DNA of 64,000 nucleotides from Candidatus Barnesiella excrementavium (GTDB lineage: Bacteria > Bacteroidota > Bacteroidia > Bacteroidales > Barnesiellaceae): the NCBI GenBank assembly GCA_019115485.1, contig DXDM01000037.1, forward strand, positions 1 through 64,000. Direction: 5' to 3'. Position numbers and translations under genes: made by a program. Within the stretch, counting starts at the first letter, position 1. The number at the start of each line of letters is the position of its first letter. The notes under the pieces were generated by a model that was not told the DNA's origin, did no database searches, and saw only the letters and a list, made by a program, of their open reading frames with translations. Below are positions 11,584 to 53,834 of this stretch, in pieces.

Positions 11584-11741
11584 GGTGGCGACTCGGTATA
11601 GCCCGAACTCGGAAACGGCGTTCCCATTTATTCCCGGGCTCATTTTTCGCTATCATTGAATAAGATAGGGGGCGGCTCGGTATAGTCAAACTTGAAAACT
11701 TTGTTTTCGTTTGTCTCTGCGCTCGCCTTTCACTATCTTTG
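11584..11741 (+). repeat. Tandem promoter-bearing repeat array, locus 1 (two units)
   Basis: Two units in the orientation reading toward rpe. The second unit (11659-11741, 83 bp) is well kept: GGCTCGGTATAG near its start, the short hairpin GAAAAC-TTT-GTTTTC at 11694-11708, and a promoter at its end. The first unit (about 11584-11658) is a diverged copy ending TATCATTG with TTTA 20 bases upstream. The same unit appears inverted at about 14.5, 16.7 and 53.7 kb. Confidence 0.85.
11710..11741 (+). promoter_or_regulatory. rpe promoter within repeat
   Basis: TTTG at 11710-11713, exactly 20 bases, then TATCTTTG at 11734-11741: a full Bacteroidetes housekeeping promoter. The start site would be near 11748, about 20 bases before the rpe ATG. 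Confidence 0.8.
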
Positions 11742-11767: not shown

Positions 11768-12418
11768 ATGAGCGTAATAATTTCTCCATCGCTGCTTTCG
11801 GCCGATTTCGGGAACCTGAACAGCGAAATCGACCTGATTAACGAGAGCGCGGCCGACTGGCTGCACATCGATGTGATGGACGGCGTGTTTGTCCCTAATA
11901 TCTCGTTTGGCTTCCCGGTGCTCGAATTTGTAAACCGCCGGTGCGCCAAGCCGCTCGACGTGCACCTGATGATTGTGGAGCCTCAGAAATTTATCAACGA
12001 GGTCAAACAGATAGGCGGTGCCATCATGACGGTACATTACGAGGCTTGTACCCATCTGCACCGGGTGGTACAGCAGATTCATGCCGCAGGTATGAAGGCG
12101 GGTGTTTCGCTCAATCCGCACACCCCGGTCTCGCTGCTTGAAGATATTATCGAAGATGTCGACGTGGTACTGCTCATGTCGGTCAATCCCGGGTTCGGAG
12201 GACAGAAGTTTATTCCCCGCATTCTCGACAAAGTGCGCGACTTGAAGGCAATGATTGCCCGTCGGCACGCACATGCTCTCATCGAGATAGACGGTGGCGT
12301 GAACCTCGAAACGGGACGGCAACTGGTCGAGGCTGGTGCCGACGTGCTGGTAGCCGGCAGTTTTGTCTTCCACTCCGAGGCTCCGCTCGAAACCATAGCC
12401 CGTTTGAAACAGTTGTAA
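11768..12418 (+). CDS. rpe: Ribulose-phosphate 3-epimerase
   Basis: Interconverts ribulose 5-phosphate and xylulose 5-phosphate in the pentose phosphate pathway. The start at 11768 gives MSVIISPSLLSADFG, the normal N-terminus; a longer frame from 11711 is only read-through of the promoter repeat. Signatures in order: LHIDVMDGVFVPN (metal His and catalytic Asp), DVHLMI, SVNPGFGGQ (phosphate loop) and EIDGGVN (second catalytic Asp and phosphate site). Length 216, as expected. Transcribed from the repeat-borne promoter, with a strong terminator 20 bp after the stop. Confidence 0.96.
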   Translation: MSVIISPSLLSADFGNLNSEIDLINESAADWLHIDVMDGVFVPNISFGFPVLEFVNRRCAKPLDVHLMIVEPQKFINEVKQIGGAIMTVHYEACTHLHRVVQQIHAAGMKAGVSLNPHTPVSLLEDIIEDVDVVLLMSVNPGFGGQKFIPRILDKVRDLKAMIARRHAHALIEIDGGVNLETGRQLVEAGADVLVAGSFVFHSEAPLETIARLKQL

Positions 12419-12504: not shown

Positions 12505-13701
12505 CTATTCCATATAGCCCACAACGGTCACCGGTTCGGAACCTACGGTCGATTCGATTGTGGTGCGTTCGCCCCGGGCATTCTCATAGACAAACGTGTA
12601 GGTCTGATCCTTTTTCAACAGGAATTTGAGAGCATCGTTCATATCCTGCAAGGGACCGGCCGTGCGGCCTCCACCCAGTTGTACCCCGTCGCAGAAGACG
12701 TCGACATTGGCCTCTACCCGGTCTTCCGAGTTCGAGTTGTGTTGCTTGTCCTTATACATGACAAAGGTGACAATCGTGTGGGTAGCCTGTTGCTGGATTG
12801 TTTGGGTCTGCTGGCCGTAGAGGTCGATGTAACGTTGCGACACGTCGACGGCATGCACATCGCGCGACTCCTGATTCCACACCATGGGGAACCAGTCGCC
12901 GGTGGGCCGGAACGATACGGCATAGATGGCGTGAATGCGGTCGCCCGGAATTGACTGACCGGCATCGGCCATGAACCAGGCTCCGTCGAGGGCTGGCGGC
13001 AAATAATATTCGGTCGAGTGCCAGGTGCCGTCAATCCACACCTCGGTCCAGCTGTGGTTGCCCCGGTTGTCGTGCCAGGCAGCCGTACCCGCGAAACGGG
13101 CCGGAATACCTACCGAGCGGAGGGCATCGACCAACAGAATGGAGAGACCCGTGCAGGAGGCCATACCTTGACGCATCGACTCCGACGGACTCTGGTTGGT
13201 CTTTTCGCGCAACGTGTTATACTCTACTCCTACCACCTGAGGAATAATGGCGTTGACGGTATCGAGGGCCTCGCGCAGGCTCTTGCAGCCTCGTACCCGG
13301 GGGGCAAAGCGTTCGTAAAAATCTTTTCGCCAGGCATCGCGCACCTCGTCGACCGAGGCATAGGGCAACACCTCGTTGAGGAAAATCGAGTCGGGCAAGG
13401 CCTTGGCCCAGGCGAATTCGGCCCGGGCGCGGCAGGCGTAAGTCACATTCTCGCGCAACAGCGCCAGATCCATCGTGTCGCGGTCGCCTTGGGGCATCCA
13501 GGCCAACAGGTAGGCCATAGCCTCCTTCTCGTCGCGGGGTGTCTCTTTGAGCAGCACGCGCAGACTGTCGGAACGGGGCGAATCGTCGAGGACGGTTTCG
13601 AGTTGTCGCTGACTGTCGGCCGAGATACCCGACGAGGTACAGCCTGCCACCGTGCAGGCCACTCCGGCGAACAGCAGCATAAGGGCATGAGTTCTTTTCA
13701 T
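12505..13701 (-). CDS. Transglutaminase-like lipoprotein
   Basis: Predicted cell-envelope lipoprotein (lipobox VAGC, Cys21) with a transglutaminase/protease-fold core. The core shows Cys183 in MASCTGLSILLVDALRSVGI, His216 in GNHSWTEVW, and Glu231 at the place where the family normally has Asp. It could be an amide hydrolase or cross-linking enzyme, but no substrate can be assigned. The C-terminal about 110 residues look like a beta-sandwich (TYTFVYENARGERTT). Length 398. It follows cutC by 12 bp and is likely in the same transcript. Confidence 0.8.
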   Translation of the reverse strand: MKRTHALMLLFAGVACTVAGCTSSGISADSQRQLETVLDDSPRSDSLRVLLKETPRDEKEAMAYLLAWMPQGDRDTMDLALLRENVTYACRARAEFAWAKALPDSIFLNEVLPYASVDEVRDAWRKDFYERFAPRVRGCKSLREALDTVNAIIPQVVGVEYNTLREKTNQSPSESMRQGMASCTGLSILLVDALRSVGIPARFAGTAAWHDNRGNHSWTEVWIDGTWHSTEYYLPPALDGAWFMADAGQSIPGDRIHAIYAVSFRPTGDWFPMVWNQESRDVHAVDVSQRYIDLYGQQTQTIQQQATHTIVTFVMYKDKQHNSNSEDRVEANVDVFCDGVQLGGGRTAGPLQDMNDALKFLLKKDQTYTFVYENARGERTTIESTVGSEPVTVVGYME

Positions 13702-13713
13702 ATCGGATTGGTT

Positions 13714-14454
13714 TTATGAGTTGAGTTGATTAAGTATTTCGCGAATCTTCGTTTCGTCGGCCCCCACCGAGGCATACTCGGGAATACCCGGTACACCGCC
13801 CATCGAGACGACAGGGTTGCGGTAGGTCATGCCACTCTCGACCTGGCTGCGGGCACTGAAATGCACGGCATCGACACCGGTCCCGGCCAACTGCCGCACA
13901 TTCGACGGACTCACACCGCTACCGGCCATGATGGCAATTCGTCCGGCCGATTGGGCCACCAGCGCCCGAATCGTATCGATTCCCTCCATCGCCGTGTTGC
14001 GGCCGCCCGAGGTGAGCACCCGGTAACAGCCCGCGCGTACCAGCGATTCGAGAGCCTCGGCCGTATCGCGGGTCATGTCGAAAGCCCGGTGAAAGGTAAA
14101 CTGCATCGAGCCGCAACGCTCCACCAGCCGGGCGGTACGCTCCTCGTCGACACGTCCGTCGGGGGTGAGCATACCGGCTACCACGCAATCGGCCCCGCAC
14201 TCGCGGGCAAAGTCGACCTCGTCGAGCATGAGTTCAAACTCTTCATCGGTATAGAGGAAATCGCCACCCCGGGGGCGAATCATCACACTCAGTTGCAGAT
14301 GGGGTATCTGGCGAGCCCGGCGAATCAGGGCTGCCGAAGGGGTCGTCCCCCCTTCGTAGGGCGAGGCGCACAGTTCTACCCGAGTCACCCCCGTACGCGC
14401 CGCAGCGTGACAGGCTTCGAGCGAGAAGGCGCATAATTCGGTTTCGATTTTCAT
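13714..14454 (-). CDS. cutC: CutC-family protein
   Basis: TIM-barrel protein of the CutC family, historically tied to copper tolerance although the reaction is uncertain. Seen: ELCAFSLEACHAAARTGV at the N-terminus, VELCASPYEGGTTPS, MIRPRGGDFLYTDEE, TFHRAFDM and LTSGG, all family landmarks. Length 246 is normal. Two promoter-bearing repeat units lie directly upstream, and a transglutaminase-like lipoprotein gene follows at 12 bp. Confidence 0.92.
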   Translation of the reverse strand: MKIETELCAFSLEACHAAARTGVTRVELCASPYEGGTTPSAALIRRARQIPHLQLSVMIRPRGGDFLYTDEEFELMLDEVDFARECGADCVVAGMLTPDGRVDEERTARLVERCGSMQFTFHRAFDMTRDTAEALESLVRAGCYRVLTSGGRNTAMEGIDTIRALVAQSAGRIAIMAGSGVSPSNVRQLAGTGVDAVHFSARSQVESGMTYRNPVVSMGGVPGIPEYASVGADETKIREILNQLNS

Positions 14455-14499
14455 AATCGTTTCTGGATATCGTATTTCATCGGTTTACAAAATCTTTTG

Positions 14500-14531
14500 T
14501 AAAGATAGTGAAAGGCGAGAGTAGAGGCAAA
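14500..14531 (-). promoter_or_regulatory. cutC proximal promoter within repeat
   Basis: On the minus strand TTTG (14528-14531), 20 bases, then TATCTTTA (14500-14507). One mismatch from TAnnTTTG; about 45 bp before the cutC start. Confidence 0.65.
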
Positions 14532-14583
14532 CGAAAAACACAATTTTCAAATTGGTCTGTACCGAGCCGCCTCCTGTCTTATT

Positions 14584-14615
14584 CAAAAATAGTGAAAGGC
14601 GAGGGTAGAGACAAA
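14584..14615 (-). promoter_or_regulatory. cutC distal promoter within second repeat unit
   Basis: On the minus strand TTTG (14612-14615), 20 bases, then TATTTTTG (14584-14591), in the same phase as the proximal promoter one repeat length away. Confidence 0.65.
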
Positions 14616-14642
14616 TGGGAAGCAATTTTCAAGAGTTGTGCG

Positions 14643-15299
14643 TCATTCGCCCTCCTCCTGATGCAGCCGATAGAAGAATTTGTGATGCTCGAAACAGATA
14701 TCGAGCAGCCCGAAGCGGACGAACCGGGCAATATAATCTACGGCCGAACGGTATGACAGGCGAGCCAACCGGCTGTATTTGCTCACCGTAATCGCTCCAT
14801 GTTCGGCCAGGTAGTCGAGCAGGAGCTGTTCGCGCTCGGTATATTCCACGAGCGAACCTTTGGGACTGTTCTTCTGCCGCCAAACCGCCAGATGCACGGC
14901 CGTAGCCAGTATGTTCTCATCGGCTATGCGCACGTAGGCCATGTACTTGCCGGGAGCCACCTGAGCCTGCACCGGCTTTTCGACAGCCTTTGGAATCTCA
15001 GCAATGAGCACGGTCTTGCCCTCGACGGTATAGGTGTGCATCTCGATTGCAACCTGAGGCAGGCAGTAGAGCTGCGCGGCAGCCTCAATCATGTAGACCT
15101 CCTCTTCGGAGCGCACCCCGGCGATGCGGCCGTTATCTTTCACCCCGATGAGCAGACGGCCGCCGTCGGTATTGGCAAAGGCCGACAGCGAGCGGGCTAT
15201 CTTGCGGGCATCGGAAATCTCGAATTTGAAATCCTGCTGCTGGTGCTCGCCCTCCTCGATGAGTTGCTGCAAATAGAGCTTGTCGGACATCGGCTTCAT
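14643..15299 (-). CDS. Schlafen AlbA_2-domain protein
   Basis: Putative nucleic-acid-binding regulator. The N-terminal domain shows the AlbA_2 pattern: E-QQDFKFEISDARKIARSL followed by AFANTDGGRLLIGVKDNG. The C-terminal 70 residues look like a winged helix (EYTEREQLLLDYLAEHGAI, then SYRSAVDYIARF). Length 218. Its ATG overlaps the stop of the upstream MATE exporter gene (ATGA), so translation is probably coupled. The start could be Met1 or Met4. Function is inferred only from domain family and coupling. Confidence 0.8.
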   Translation of the reverse strand: MKPMSDKLYLQQLIEEGEHQQQDFKFEISDARKIARSLSAFANTDGGRLLIGVKDNGRIAGVRSEEEVYMIEAAAQLYCLPQVAIEMHTYTVEGKTVLIAEIPKAVEKPVQAQVAPGKYMAYVRIADENILATAVHLAVWRQKNSPKGSLVEYTEREQLLLDYLAEHGAITVSKYSRLARLSYRSAVDYIARFVRFGLLDICFEHHKFFYRLHQEEGE

Positions 15300-16660
15300 G
15301 CGTTGCCCTCCTTCTCGATGAGCTTATGGAGGCGATAGCGAAATCGCAGCCAGAACAGCAGGCCGGCCGAGAAGAGTCCCGCCGGGAAGGCAACCCATAC
15401 CCCCACGACACCACCTCCGAAGGTGAAACCGCACAGGTACCCTACGGGAAGAGCTATCACGAAATAGGCGAAGAAGGCAATCCACATCATGGGCTTCACG
15501 TCGGCCGTACCCCGCAGGGCGTTGGCAAAGGTTATCTGCAAAGCGTCGCCAAACTGGTAAACGATAAGCGAGTAGATGAGTACGGCAACGACGGCCATCA
15601 CCTCGGGGTCCTCGGTAAAACTGTATACGATGGGGAGACGGGCCAGATAGAAAAAGAGACTGGCTGCCACGGCCAGTACCATGATGATGCCCAACCCGGC
15701 ATGGACGGCCCGTTGCAGATTGGGAAAATCGCGCTGCCCCATGAAATGGCTTACCCGCACGGCCAGGGCAGCCCCCATGCCGTAGTAAATCATAAACCCG
15801 AGGGTGCTGACCGAAATCATGATCTGATGGGCCGCCAGCGGCACACTGCCCAGCCAACCCACCATGATGGCACTCAACGAGAAGGCGGCCGTCTCCATAC
15901 CCATCTGCAAGGCGATGGGCCACCCCAAGGCATTGAGTTGCACAAAGTCGTTGCGATTGAATCGCGAGTGGCACATGGCCTCCCGATAGGCCCGATATCT
16001 GGGGGCTCCGGCCACGATGGCGACGAAGACCAGCAGCATGACCACCCGCGAGACCAGGGTGCTGACTCCTGCTCCGAAGAGACCCCATTCGGGCAACCCG
16101 AAACTGCCGTAGATGAGCAGATAGTTCCCCACAATATTCAGGGCATTTCCCCCCAGTAGAATCCACATGGGGGTGCGGGTATCGGTAAGCCCCTCGGCAA
16201 ACTGCCGGTAGCTGTTGAAGAGCATGACAAATATCAGGGAGACCAGTTGCAAGATGAAGTAGGGGCGTATGTGGGGCAGCAACTCGACCGGTTGCCCCAT
16301 CTGGTCGACAAAGCAATAGACCACATACATGATGGCCGTGAGCAACAGCGCCAGAGCGGTGTGAGCCACAAGGGCGTTGCGGAAAACGCGCCCTATCCCC
16401 TGCGTGTTGCCACTTCCCTGCAACATGCCTATCAACGGTGTGAGCCCGTAGGAGAAGCCGGTGGCAAAGATGATGGCCAGATTGAACACGTTGTTGACAA
16501 AGGCGGCGGCCGCCAGTTCGTCGGTACTGTGATGCCCGATCATGACCGTATCGGCCAGACCCAGTATAATCATACCCAACTGCCCCACGACAATGGGCAG
16601 ACCCAGTTTGAGCAGCGAGACAATATGTTGTTTATATGGCAATAACTGAACGGTATTCAT
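15296..16660 (-). CDS. MATE-family multidrug/toxin efflux transporter
   Basis: Inner-membrane exporter of cationic compounds, Na+ or H+ driven. Twelve hydrophobic segments in two MatE halves are visible, beginning LLKLGLPIVVGQLGMIILGLADTVMIGH. I place the start at 16660 (MNTVQLLPYK), since the 28 residues readable upstream come from the promoter repeat. Length 454, normal. It is the first gene of a pair with the AlbA_2 gene. Closest to the NorM-type branch; substrate unknown. Confidence 0.92.
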   Translation of the reverse strand: MNTVQLLPYKQHIVSLLKLGLPIVVGQLGMIILGLADTVMIGHHSTDELAAAAFVNNVFNLAIIFATGFSYGLTPLIGMLQGSGNTQGIGRVFRNALVAHTALALLLTAIMYVVYCFVDQMGQPVELLPHIRPYFILQLVSLIFVMLFNSYRQFAEGLTDTRTPMWILLGGNALNIVGNYLLIYGSFGLPEWGLFGAGVSTLVSRVVMLLVFVAIVAGAPRYRAYREAMCHSRFNRNDFVQLNALGWPIALQMGMETAAFSLSAIMVGWLGSVPLAAHQIMISVSTLGFMIYYGMGAALAVRVSHFMGQRDFPNLQRAVHAGLGIIMVLAVAASLFFYLARLPIVYSFTEDPEVMAVVAVLIYSLIVYQFGDALQITFANALRGTADVKPMMWIAFFAYFVIALPVGYLCGFTFGGGVVGVWVAFPAGLFSAGLLFWLRFRYRLHKLIEKEGNA

Positions 16661-16694
16661 GAACGATCGATTGACCTGTTGGCAAAACAGTGTG

Positions 16695-16726
16695 CAAAGA
16701 TAGTGAAAGGCGAGGGTAGAGACAAA
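16695..16726 (-). promoter_or_regulatory. MATE gene promoter within repeat
   Basis: On the minus strand TTTG (16723-16726), 20 bases, TATCTTTG (16695-16702). Start site near 16688, about 28 bases before the ATG. Unit 2 repeats the -7 element at 16777-16784. Confidence 0.8.
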
Positions 16727-16887
16727 CGAAAACGCAGTTTTCAAGTTTGCTATACCGAGCCGACTCCTATCTTATTCAAAGATAGTGAAAGGCGAGGGTA
16801 AAGATAAACGGAATCGCAGTTTTCAAGTTTGCTATACCGAGTCGACTCCTATCTTATCCAAAGATACGAAAACCGGGGTGAACAAAC
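16695..16887 (-). repeat. Tandem promoter-bearing repeat array, locus 3 (two full units plus distal end)
   Basis: The clearest array: unit 1 at 16695-16776 and unit 2 at 16777-16858, each exactly 82 bp and differing at only a few positions, then a partial third piece (CAAAGATACGAAAACCGGGG). Each unit begins CAAAGATAG and ends CCTATCTTAT, so AAGATAG and CTATCTT are short inverted ends. In unit 1 a hairpin GAAAAC-GCA-GTTTTC lies at 16728-16742. Confidence 0.92.
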
Positions 16888-16987
16888 TATTTTTATATTC
16901 CCGGTAAGAGCGAGCAGGTTACCCGCAGCTACCGGCCGAAGGGGTGGAAAACTGTCCCCGGCGGGAGTAGGGTATCGATTGCTTTAT

Positions 16988-17036
16988 TAAAAAATAAGGA
17001 GAGAGGCATGCCCCCAAGCGGGACAACCTCTCTCCT
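16988..17036 (-). terminator. Terminator of nucleotidyltransferase gene
   Basis: AGGAGAGAGG (16997-17006) pairs with CCTCTCTCCT (17027-17036); a U-run (from 16988-16994) follows on the minus strand. Confidence 0.85.
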
Positions 17037-17065
17037 GTAATCGTATCTTCTCTGGGATAGAGCTA

Positions 17066-17965
17066 TCAGAACAGTTTGGCGGGATATTCGCCGGCGTCGA
17101 CCAGAGCCTGAATTTTGTCGACAACCGATTGGCGGTCGGCGGCATAGGTCACACCGAACCACTTCGACGGAGTGTCGAGCACGGTAACCGTTGCTTTACC
17201 CGACTGAATGAGGTCGTTGACCAGGAGCGGAATGAAGAATTCGGCCTTGATGTTGCCGGCATTCTCTTTCAGGAAGTTCACAAAATAGTCCTCGGAATAT
17301 TTGAAATAGTCGGGAGTGAAGCCCCACATGTTCATCGACACGGGTGTGTTGTCGGGGATAGCCGTCCAGGTTTCACCCTCCTTGAACATCACCTCGCCGT
17401 CGCGACGCTCGATTTGCGTGCGCTCTACTACCGAAGTCAGGTGTTTCGAGGCATTCATCTCGCACACGCCACGGGCTACGGTACCACTCTCCGAGAGGGT
17501 ATTGCCTACCCGATAGCCTACCATGCAATAGTCGTTTTGCTTGCCTTCGAGGTTCTTCAAGTAGTCGGCCAGGATAGCAAAGCTCTCACGACCGTAGAAG
17601 TCGTCGGCATTGATTACGGCAAACGGCTCTTTAATCACATCTTTACCCATCAACAGGGCGTGGTTGGTACCCCACGGTTTGGTACGGCCTTCGGGACAAG
17701 TGAACCCTTCGGGCAGGTCGTTGATTGACTGGAATACCAGCTCGCACGGGATATGACCTTCGTATTTGGAAAGGATTTTCTCTCTGAAATCCTGTTCAAA
17801 ATCTTTGCGGATAACGAATACGACTTTACCGAATCCACCCCGTAAGGCATCGAAAATCGAGTAATCCATAATCGTTTCACCGTTGGGGCCGAGACCGTCG
17901 AGTTGTTTCAAGCCTCCATATCGGCTACCCATACCGGCAGCCAGGACAAAAAGAGTAGGTTTCAT
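17066..17965 (-). CDS. Sugar-phosphate nucleotidyltransferase
   Basis: Likely makes an NDP-sugar from NTP and a sugar 1-phosphate. The N-terminus has the nucleotide-binding signature LAAGMGSRYGGLKQLDGLGP, and VINADDFYG supplies the metal-binding Asp of NTP transferases. Length 299. It resembles UTP-glucose-1-phosphate uridylyltransferase-type enzymes common in Bacteroidetes, but sugar and nucleotide cannot be fixed. Single-gene unit with its own terminator. Confidence 0.82.
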   Translation of the reverse strand: MKPTLFVLAAGMGSRYGGLKQLDGLGPNGETIMDYSIFDALRGGFGKVVFVIRKDFEQDFREKILSKYEGHIPCELVFQSINDLPEGFTCPEGRTKPWGTNHALLMGKDVIKEPFAVINADDFYGRESFAILADYLKNLEGKQNDYCMVGYRVGNTLSESGTVARGVCEMNASKHLTSVVERTQIERRDGEVMFKEGETWTAIPDNTPVSMNMWGFTPDYFKYSEDYFVNFLKENAGNIKAEFFIPLLVNDLIQSGKATVTVLDTPSKWFGVTYAADRQSVVDKIQALVDAGEYPAKLF

Positions 17966-18305
17966 AGCTGTTTCTTGTTTTTTTTTAGTTTTTCATGAGT
18001 TGCAAATGTACATATTTTTTATGATAAAACGGTCATATCGACCCGCTTTTAAATCTACCTCTGTCATATCGGCCCAAGACCCCGCATCAACCCGTCCCCA
18101 GGCTTTCGACACAATGTCAACAAAAGAATTTTGTTCACGGCGATAGTGTTAAAAACGGAACGATAGGATAAAAAAATTCTATTTTTACTTTCCAATTTCA
18201 AAAAAAACATCTTTATTTGCATCGAATAATAATTATTGAATCACTCTAAAATAAGATTGCCTATCGACAAAACATTACGCTTGACTAAAACAAAGGAAGA
18301 TAGTA
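17966..18305. other. Divergent intergenic region, AT-rich
   Basis: About 340 bp between the nucleotidyltransferase (minus) and an ECF sigma factor (plus). Apart from the -7 element at 18003-18010 and a purine-rich ribosome site (AAAGGAAG) just before 18306, I see no gene or structured RNA. Confidence 0.4.
18003..18010 (-). promoter_or_regulatory. -7 element of nucleotidyltransferase promoter
   Basis: TACATTTG on the minus strand, about 38 bp upstream of the ATG. No clear -33 match. Confidence 0.45.
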
Positions 18306-40730: not shown

Positions 40731-40810
40731 CGATACCCCGGTTTCTCTCCTCCTTTCTCTCCCCGGCTGGTGGGGGTGGCCGAAATTCGGCCGGGCAAAA
40801 CCGAAATAAA

Positions 40811-40842
40811 TTTGATTTTGCCCTTTGCTTGCACTATCTTTG
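40811..40842 (+). promoter_or_regulatory. tgt promoter
   Basis: TTTG (40811-40814), 20 bases, TATCTTTG (40835-40842), about 100 bp before the ATG. GCACTATCTTTG resembles the last bases of the dispersed repeat. Confidence 0.8.
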
Positions 40843-50649: not shown

Positions 50650-50772
50650 CCGTTGTACCCGGGGGTACCTCGGGGCTGTTGCACGATTCCCGACCCGGGC
50701 GGTTTTTCTCCCTGTTTGGAAGCGGCTACGGGCGGTCTGTCAAAAAAACTCAAACAAGTTTAGCCTTTTTGT

Positions 50773-50793
50773 GCTCACCTTTCACTATCTTTG
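50773..50793 (+). promoter_or_regulatory. proS promoter: lone core of the dispersed repeat
   Basis: GCTCACCTTTCACTATCTTTG matches the promoter end of the dispersed repeat at nearly every base, with TATCTTTG at 50786-50793. No clear TTTG 20 bases upstream and no full unit. It implies a leader of about 135 bases before proS. Confidence 0.65.
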
Positions 50794-52512: not shown

Positions 52513-53676
52513 TTATAGCGGAAGCGGGGAGGTAGATGCCGACGTGATGCGGTAGGAGTCGCGCCTTTCGGTGTTGTTCTCCCCGTCAGGATTTACGGCC
52601 CGGTTCCATTCGAGAATCACCCCTTCGAGGCTGAAATGAATCGTGAGCACCCCGTTGTCGCCGATGATGGCCTTGACCCCTTCGCGCATCGGCCGGTGCT
52701 CGGCATCGTACCAGGTGACGTTGAAGAGGTTGGAGAGCCCCGTCGGTTCCAGTACCGCCTTCACCATACCCGTCTGCCACTGGTCGCCAAACCGTTGGGC
52801 ACCTTCGATATAGACCAGCAGAAAGTGGGAGCCGCTGGAAACCAGAGCCAGTCGGTAGTTGCCTCCCAGGCGGGTATAGCTGTTGGTTGCCGTGGCTTGC
52901 AGAAACTCATAGAAACCCTCGGCCGGGTGACGGCTGTGGCGCAGCAGGTCGTTCAGCTCTTCGGCACTCCAAATGACATGCCGCTCGGGATATTTGCGCG
53001 GAGTGACCGTCCAGTTTTTCAACCTCACGCAAGCCCCGCTCCCCACGCAGATGCCTGCCCGGTCGCCGAAGAGGCGGTCGTCGCGGCAGAACCCGAGGCG
53101 AAATTCCCGCTCCGGGCCCAGCAGAATTTCATATCCGCCGCTCACCGGCACGATGTGCAGCCGGTTGTAGTCGCTCCCGGGGTGTATCGAGTTTGAAGCC
53201 ACCCGCTTCCACCGGGTATGGAATATCGTGTCGCCCCGGACTACGGTATAAATCGTGCAGAGCCATTCGGGAGGTTGGTACCCGTAGAAATCGTCGGCTC
53301 CGGCCCGCAGCAGCAAGCCGTGATGATTCTGAGGGTCGCGATAGCCCCACACCACTCCCCATACCGGCTTCTCCACCTTTTGGCGCAGAGTCTGTCCGGT
53401 AGAGTCGGTAGTGAATACCTCATACCTCCTGCCGGTGCGGTTGTGCAGGTTGGCAATGTCGAGGGTGATGGCTGGTCGAGCCCCTTTGCCCGGATTGATT
53501 CCCGTGGCGATTGTGTTTGTTACGCAACTGTCGGCCCGAGAGTTGCAGTCGGTCAATACGCCGTCCCGGAGGGTCGCCCGGCGTAACGGCGTCTCACCCG
53601 TGTACCACGACGGGGCGGCACCGGCCCCGATGCAGAGTATCGTGAGGAGTAGGGAGAGGAGGCGAGGAGCTTTCAT
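52513..53676 (-). CDS. Secreted protein of unknown function
   Basis: 387 residues with signal peptide (about 1-20, LLSLLLTILCIGAGA-A). The sequence is beta-rich with a possible concanavalin-like fold (DGVLTDCNSRADSC, GVVWGYRDPQNHHGLLLRAG, CVGSGACVRLKNWTV), resembling glycan-binding or laminarinase-fold domains, but I cannot name a family. It lies behind a promoter-bearing repeat array. Confidence 0.65.
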   Translation of the reverse strand: MKAPRLLSLLLTILCIGAGAAPSWYTGETPLRRATLRDGVLTDCNSRADSCVTNTIATGINPGKGARPAITLDIANLHNRTGRRYEVFTTDSTGQTLRQKVEKPVWGVVWGYRDPQNHHGLLLRAGADDFYGYQPPEWLCTIYTVVRGDTIFHTRWKRVASNSIHPGSDYNRLHIVPVSGGYEILLGPEREFRLGFCRDDRLFGDRAGICVGSGACVRLKNWTVTPRKYPERHVIWSAEELNDLLRHSRHPAEGFYEFLQATATNSYTRLGGNYRLALVSSGSHFLLVYIEGAQRFGDQWQTGMVKAVLEPTGLSNLFNVTWYDAEHRPMREGVKAIIGDNGVLTIHFSLEGVILEWNRAVNPDGENNTERRDSYRITSASTSPLPL

Positions 53677-53678
53677 CA

Positions 53679-53834
53679 GTTTTCAAGTTGAGGGGGCCAG
53701 TATTTACCGACCCTTATCCAAAGGTAGTGAAAGGCGAGAGCAGAGCCCCAGGGAAATACGGTTTTCAACCGTGGGCTATGCCGAGCCGAATCCTATCTTA
53801 TCCAAAGGTAGTGAAAACCGGGGGAAGAACCAAA
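53679..53834 (-). repeat. Tandem promoter-bearing repeat array, locus 4
   Basis: A partial unit (53679-53718), a full 84-bp unit (53719-53802) and a distal piece starting at 53803, oriented toward the secreted-protein gene. The full unit keeps TAGTGAAAGGCGAG, GGTTTTCAA, TATGCCGAGCCG and CCTATCTTATC. Its -7 is TACCTTTG but the -33 has decayed to TGGG. Confidence 0.85.
53803..53834 (-). promoter_or_regulatory. Distal promoter of repeat locus 4
   Basis: On the minus strand TTTG (53831-53834), 20 bases, TACCTTTG (53803-53810): intact, unlike that of the full unit next to it. Confidence 0.6.

Follow-up and report, generated by a model that had tools for sequence, protein, structure and literature searches.

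Matus-Garcia, Nijveen and van Passel are said to have put forward, in 2012, the idea of putative mobile promoters and promoter propagation. Correia/NEMIS, RUP and BOX elements are short palindromic intergenic repeats, some of which bear promoters, and we know of no promoter-box targeting or orientation lock in these elements. In Bacteroidales, BrickBuilt, a MITE of Porphyromonas gingivalis, is an intergenic, multi-copy element with tandem repeats and promoter activity (PMC4596501). The consensus of the Bacteroidetes primary sigma factor, sigma-ABfr, is TAnnTTTG at -7 and TTTG at about -33 (PMC7366714). The repeat units described here, from the genome of Candidatus Barnesiella excrementavium, match this consensus and probably start transcription in these bacteria. 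It is quite likely that they represent a small non-coding palindromic promoter element which multiplies by copying into the -7 boxes of existing promoters.

A sequence-only reading of the window, i.e., the whole 64,000-nucleotide stretch of DNA analyzed, had claimed two head-to-tail units of about 82 bp at 16695-16887, and this is borne out by TRF, which reports a tandem array at 16695-16866 (period 82, 93% matches, score 302), and by nhmmer, which detects minus-strand units at 16696-16773 and 16778-16855. The unit proximal to the MATE transporter gene spans 16695-16775 (minus strand; nhmmer, TRF, and blast); its -7 box TATCTTTG (16695-16702, minus strand), its -33 TTTG (16723-16726) and its central palindrome of GAAAAC (16728-16733) and GTTTTC (16737-16742) can be read directly from the sequence. 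The distal unit occupies 16777-16858 (minus strand), and its -7 box (16777-16784) pairs with the start of the proximal unit in a strandless junction palindrome, CTATCTT-ATTCA-AAGATAG (16767-16785). Another -7 box, TATCTTTG, is left over upstream, outside the array (16859-16866, minus strand), and is the flank expected if insertion hit an older promoter. The MATE gene downstream (15296-16660, minus strand; Pfam) encodes a protein with 97% identity in the closest congener, G001, where a single unit of different sequence precedes the gene.

Similar arrays had been placed at 11584-11741, 14500-14640 and 53679-53834. These stretches are right to within a few bases, but the last does not hold two units, consisting instead of one full unit and a 13-bp fragment. 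Before the ribulose-phosphate 3-epimerase gene (rpe; 11768-12418, plus strand; PF00834), a decayed distal unit (11584-11657, plus strand; nhmmer) is followed by an intact unit (11662-11741, plus strand; nhmmer match 11662-11740) with TTTG at 11710-11713 and TATCTTTG at 11734-11741. Before the gene for a CutC family protein (13714-14454, minus strand; PF03932), the proximal unit (14500-14580, minus strand; nhmmer match 14501-14580) has the -7 box TATCTTTA (14500-14507), and a decayed distal unit (14585-14655, minus strand; nhmmer) overlaps the 3' end of the upstream ORF on the same strand (14643-15299). The fourth locus has a single unit (53720-53799, minus strand; nhmmer) with the -7 box TACCTTTG. 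E-values of the clear units in the window range from 6e-10 to 5e-24. As claimed, the promoters aim at rpe, cutC, and the MATE gene, all confirmed by Pfam; the fourth gene (52513-53676, minus strand) encodes a 387-aa protein with a signal-peptide-like start and no Pfam match, for which an orthologue was looked for in G001 and not found. Two units had not been listed before: a weak, degenerate single unit (50718-50792, plus strand; E 5e-4) before the prolyl-tRNA synthetase gene (ATG at about 50935), and a marginal partial profile match (40786-40841, plus strand; E 0.006) that may be due to chance. A known RNA family was rejected, as nothing in the window reaches an Rfam gathering score.

In the promoter direction, a full unit consists of AAGATAGGA-KKCGGCTCGG, a central palindrome, CTCGCCTTTCAC and TATCTTTG; of the constant stretches, AAGAYAGGAKKCGGCTCGG is the left one and CTCGCCTTTCAC-TATCTTTG the right one, and the CTCGCCTTTCAC and GGCTCGG stretches are common to units of different families. 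The window unit reads ATAAGATAGGAGTCGGCTCGGTATAGCAAACTTGAAAACTGCGTTTTCGTTTGTCTCTACCCTCGCCTTTCACTATCTTTG, its right end being TTTG-N20-TATCTTTG. The promoter that had been noted at unit ends was recovered, with TTTG, 20 nt and TATCTTTG in the units at 16696 and 11662 and variant boxes in the cutC (TATCTTTA) and 53720 (TACCTTTG) units, as were the central GAAAAC-N3-GTTTTC and the 7-nt inverted ends AAGATAG/CTATCTT, the right arm of which lies mostly inside the duplicated target box. Gene-proximal units keep TAnnTTT in 40/40 and 47/47 cases, and have the -33 TTTG 19-21 nt away in 34/40 and 32/47.

The right arm of the central palindrome extends into the -33 TTTG. The slot is filled by CAAACTTGAAAAC/GTTTTCGTTTG, AAAATATCGAAAC/GTTTCGATATTTT, GCAGAAAAATCAAG/CTTGTTTTTCTGC, GCAAAT-ATGC-AA-GCAT-TTTGC, and lineage-specific palindromes; the sequence varies among classes and lineages, and palindromicity is retained. 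On average, these palindromes fold better than chimeras made from halves of different units (mean -6.3 vs. -4.4 kcal/mol), and whole-unit folds of the window unit and one Barnesiella-type unit have z-scores of -3.5 to -4.4 as RNA or DNA. A second palindrome bridges neighboring units, in which the -7 box pairs with the start of the next unit. The two sides covary: 9 of 19 non-canonical -7 boxes have an exactly complementary arm, where 1.2 would be expected and the maximum in 5000 shuffles was 5.

Several variants of this organization were seen. In Caccoplasma and one uncultured Bacteroidales (L037, L040, L067, L093), the -7 box of most distal units is shortened to CTACTTTG or CTTCTTTG, and the gene-proximal unit retains TATCTTTG. 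A second unit type (AAGATATACTGCACTCG...CGCTCGTTTGTGAGTATCTTTG) alternates with the first at L092 335-577 and L040 1545-1868, forming long perfect junction hairpins. Barnesiella sp. An22 (L061 1641-1693 and 6335-6561) has a near-palindromic stretch with -7 boxes in both directions. Another small hairpin element (CTGGATACCGCATC..GGTGCGGTATG...CCCCGCG..CGCGGGGTCCAGC) is nested in or adjoins promoter units at G001 2197392-2197694, 2301340-2301658 and 2308462-2308940, and in the C48 and C56_31500 arrays of the genome under study.

The repeat is not confined to the window. In the 2.68-Mb draft genome, 59 blast matches were obtained, which an iterated profile resolves into 41 arrays with about 75 units, one to three units each. 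Nor is its orientation to genes random, as 41/41 arrays aim at the next gene (binomial p 9e-13). In the closest congener, G001, whose proteins are 97% identical and of which 2.68 of 3.08 Mb were covered, there are 88 units in 54 arrays, 52 of which aim at the next gene (p 2e-13); the orientation of the genes upstream of these arrays is 28:26, i.e., random. A CRISPR array accounts for one of the two exceptions. One array (L246 18321-18441; G001 1058321) faces away from an MgtC-like gene and has at best a small ORF as target, and units precede the orthologue of that gene (C48) in the genome under study. The number and orientation of the arrays rule out a chance origin of the units. The median distance from array to ATG is 30-34 nt, compared with 38 for ordinary TAnnTTTG boxes before genes. 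The downstream genes are ordinary and unrelated, encoding Rpe, CutC, MATE, IspD, ArgS, AroA, a YjeF-family protein, and SUI1.

The manner of insertion is revealed by type II-C CRISPR repeats, where the ancestral sequence is exactly known. The type II locus of G001 (Cas9, type II Cas1, and Cas2) contains an array (L222, i.e., G001 560001-580000, at 13330-18200) of 61 perfect repeats, GTTGTGATTCGCTCTCAAATTTG-TATCTTTG-ACTTATTAAATACAGC, which serve as the empty-site reference, and unit-bearing terminal repeats. The terminal repeat reads GTTGTGATCCGCTTTCAAATTTGTATCTTT / CAAGAAGATAGG...CTCTCGCCTTTCAC / TATCTTTGACTTATTAAATACAGC, i.e., the left half, the unit, a repeated TATCTTT, and the right half, with the break exactly at the repeat's own TATCTTT. 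In G006, two neighboring repeats are split, their spacing being 161 instead of 77, and in G003 a solitary repeat is split; the G003 insert is 74 bp long, and the G001 insert and both G006 inserts measure 83 or 84 bp. The genome under study retains a CRISPR repeat relic, the left half and left junction of which match the split repeats. These cases are partly non-independent, as a flanking spacer is common to this genome and G001 and the two units of G006 are almost the same in sequence; the sites in this genome and G001, with the spacer and left junction shared, contain different central palindromes. TATCTTT on both sides of the unit in split repeats constitutes a 7-bp target-site duplication, indicating that the unit was added at an existing -7 box. 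As Bacteroidetes type II-C CRISPR repeats have been reported to contain a promoter of their own (PMC10309648), the target in CRISPR is again the -7 box of a promoter. In the same G001 array, a second, older and decayed insertion seems to lie in a repeat further left (TTTCACCCTCTTTGACTTATTAAATGCAGC). Two assignments near this site were rejected: the copy at 573353 is not an rRNA promoter, because the site is the CRISPR array and none of the three rRNA operons covered has a unit, and the gene at 569346 is not cas9, because its protein reads by eye as a UvrD-like helicase.

Gene promoters exhibit the same arrangement. At cutC, G002 has the native promoter (ATAGCTATCTTTG/TAAAATCC), and G007 has two units situated between the same two boxes. 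The right end of the C36 unit bears a native variant, TATTTTTG. A TAnnTTT box lies just upstream of 11/18 and 11/26 leftmost full units, vs. 2% of random places. Right junctions vary: at L333 (CACCTTT/TTGTATCTTTG) and C52 (CGCCTTT/TATTATCTTTG), native bases to the left of the -7 box are retained, and units seem to be present at C52 in other congeners as well. Outside CRISPR, gain of a unit and its exact loss between two -7 boxes would produce the same empty site, and a comparison of two species does not distinguish them.

The units turn over between sister species. At many of 35 orthologous promoters compared between this genome and G001, the unit number differs. At 19 loci, a full gene-proximal unit is present in both species, and its best match is the orthologue at only 8 of these; at the other 11 the unit has been replaced, often with another palindrome present. 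Before the gene at C56_58500 and its G001 counterpart (2170023), an old distal unit is shared and different gene-proximal units have been gained separately. Two unrelated G001 genes about 0.9 Mb apart have 100% identical 79-bp units, and the seven full members of the CCTTGTC subfamily each occupy different loci. Across nine species, the MATE promoter has from 0 to at least 5 profile matches, and in one case (L169) a two-unit block is duplicated. In G007, the MATE promoter (L172 2893-2953) has no unit, and a 23-nt inverted repeat (96%) lies over the native promoter, which is perhaps a palindrome in the making. Both suggestions of the sequence-only reading gain support: identical units at unrelated loci and insertions in CRISPR repeats and gene promoters favor a small mobile or amplifying element that brings promoters, and the varying unit number and duplicated blocks favor a promoter prone to tandem copying. 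The -7-box target rule, the CRISPR-repeat insertions, and a palindrome conserved in shape and not in sequence go beyond that reading.

The proposed mechanism builds on dispersal, orientation, insertion at -7 boxes (in CRISPR repeats), turnover between sister species and maintained palindromicity, all of which are observed here. Each unit would be a complete primary-sigma promoter, with a -33 TTTG, about 20 nt, and a -7 TAnnTTTG. Insertion would preserve the original -7 box to the left of the unit and create another one to its right, immediately ahead of the original downstream sequence, so that the new promoter is invariably directed at the same gene from an unchanged distance. The right-hand box would be a fresh target, resulting in head-to-tail arrays. 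Insertion at a -7 box that is duplicated in the process would account for orientation, gene distance and tandem growth without further assumptions. The gene-proximal unit would take over as the promoter of the gene, and the displaced unit behind it may decay.

A fixed regulon, in which the units are operator-promoters of one regulator spread by selection on ordinary mutation and recombination, would be consistent with the perfect orientation, the intact proximal -7 boxes, and the conserved spacer. This is very unlikely, however, as genes such as ispD, argS, aroA, SUI1, cutC, MATE and rpe have no common theme, the same gene differs between sister species, several unrelated palindromes occupy the same slot, and units lie inside CRISPR repeats. 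Alternatively, the orientation bias might result from purifying selection on an element inserting randomly with no target preference, since wrongly oriented copies could be lost in dense genomes. Given that CRISPR repeats are hit exactly at the -7 box and that roughly half of the leftmost full units have an old -7 box immediately upstream, there is hardly any room for this explanation.

As to how units are copied into -7 boxes, replication template switching between the boxes, aided by the hairpins, is the most likely single route, if only a tentative choice. It would need only the 7-9 bp boxes flanking each inserted unit, would yield whole-unit insertions, and would tolerate scattered right junctions such as those at L333 and C52; the variable right junctions and the missing RAYT and integron integrases count for it. 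In its fullest form, which is conceivable but falls short of probable, the unit is a self-replicating promoter without a dedicated enzyme: hairpin-prone units would template-switch from promoter to promoter at the -7 boxes of 7-9 bp that nearly all promoters of these bacteria have in common. A hairpin-recognizing enzyme is nearly as likely a route as template switching. A MITE-like element may be moved in trans by an enzyme with specificity for its hairpin and constant stretches, which would insert it beside TATCTTT, a reading that is plausible without being favored; with similar reserve, the left arm AAGATAG may pair with the target box as does the guide in IS200/IS605 elements. Palindromicity kept without sequence, target-arm covariation, the constancy of CTCGCCTTTCAC and GGCTCGG across families, patchy presence even inside one genus, and the clean 7-bp duplication in CRISPR repeats all fit such an enzyme. 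Protein recognition also explains the conserved -33/-7 spacer and the patchy family presence more easily, whereas template switching alone needs no such recognition. Against an enzyme, right junctions are variable, which weakens a fixed transposase cut, and no candidate enzyme was found. Among the inspected neighbors of the units, an autonomous element did not stand out. RAYT/IS200-type mobilization was rejected, as RAYT/Y1 (PF01797) is absent from 10/11 bearing genomes (G000-G006, G008, G029, and G036) vs. present in 38/49 others, with most bearing genomes belonging to one genus and most other sampled Bacteroidales families having PF01797. An integron attC cassette was likewise rejected, as no integron integrase (TIGR02249) was found in the bearing genomes. 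Carriage by plasmids or phages was rejected, too: no unit match was found in plasmids, the exact 20-mer described below was not found in IMG/VR, and matches in faecal phages are limited to six weaker ones in unannotated records.

The constant 20-mer CTCRCCTTTCRCTATCTTTG is found in 17/393 Bacteroidales genomes, the own genus included, representing 7/206 genera; it is absent from the remaining sampled genomes of the phylum outside Bacteroidales, and a control pattern reading it backwards has 0 matches. All eight congeners bear many copies, and within one genus label, sister species range from many copies to none. Among the named carriers are Paraprevotella, Mediterranea, Leyella, and several candidate genera from the chicken gut. 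The 91 arrays in other carrier species have the same frame, tandem layout, and orientation, with 70 of 83 scorable arrays facing the next gene by a crude longest-ORF rule. In the open-access literature, no described family was found, and the papers listed for the string ACTATCTTTG were unrelated; a description in a subscription journal could exist.

Mobile promoters have so far been proposed from sequence similarity, and a visible insertion rule with known empty sites is rare. As the target is the -7 box, each insertion would put a housekeeping gene under new control and leave the gene itself intact, and even CRISPR repeats, with their own promoter, are hit. Such an element would explain one promoter sequence before unrelated housekeeping genes in Barnesiella and in a small number of other gut Bacteroidales, a pattern that might be misread as a regulon. 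If copying is enzyme-free, the recognition sequence of the primary sigma factor would itself be the vehicle of spread, and promoters would evolve in concert genome-wide. Close gut relatives differing at most loci, together with CRISPR repeats that mark insertions, provide a tractable system for measuring promoter turnover.

Like the putative mobile promoters, the units are near-identical promoters before non-homologous genes in one genome; unlike those, they target the promoter's own -7 box, stack in tandem, and form a structured palindromic unit conserved across Bacteroidales families. With BrickBuilt they share a multi-copy, intergenic, tandem-repeat organization in Bacteroidales and, here by prediction, a promoter. 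BrickBuilt differs in having a leader and a tail that enclose 23-nt repeats, ends resembling the IS elements of that species, bidirectional promoters, and a distribution restricted to one species (PMC4596501), and we know of no fixed orientation or -7 target in it. REP, BIME and REPIN sequences are likewise small intergenic palindromes, clustered and many per genome, but REPs are not promoters, and their mobilization is due to RAYT (Y1) transposases, an enzyme type that 10/11 unit-bearing genomes lack. Correia/NEMIS, RUP, and BOX elements differ from the unit in hosts and sequences. As in IS200/IS605, the left end can pair with the bases flanking the insertion point, and the two partners covary; unlike in IS200/IS605, 10/11 bearing genomes have no Y1 transposase, and a duplicate of the target box is present on the right side. 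The novelty is how the unit sits: it is added at an existing -7 box, and the box is duplicated.
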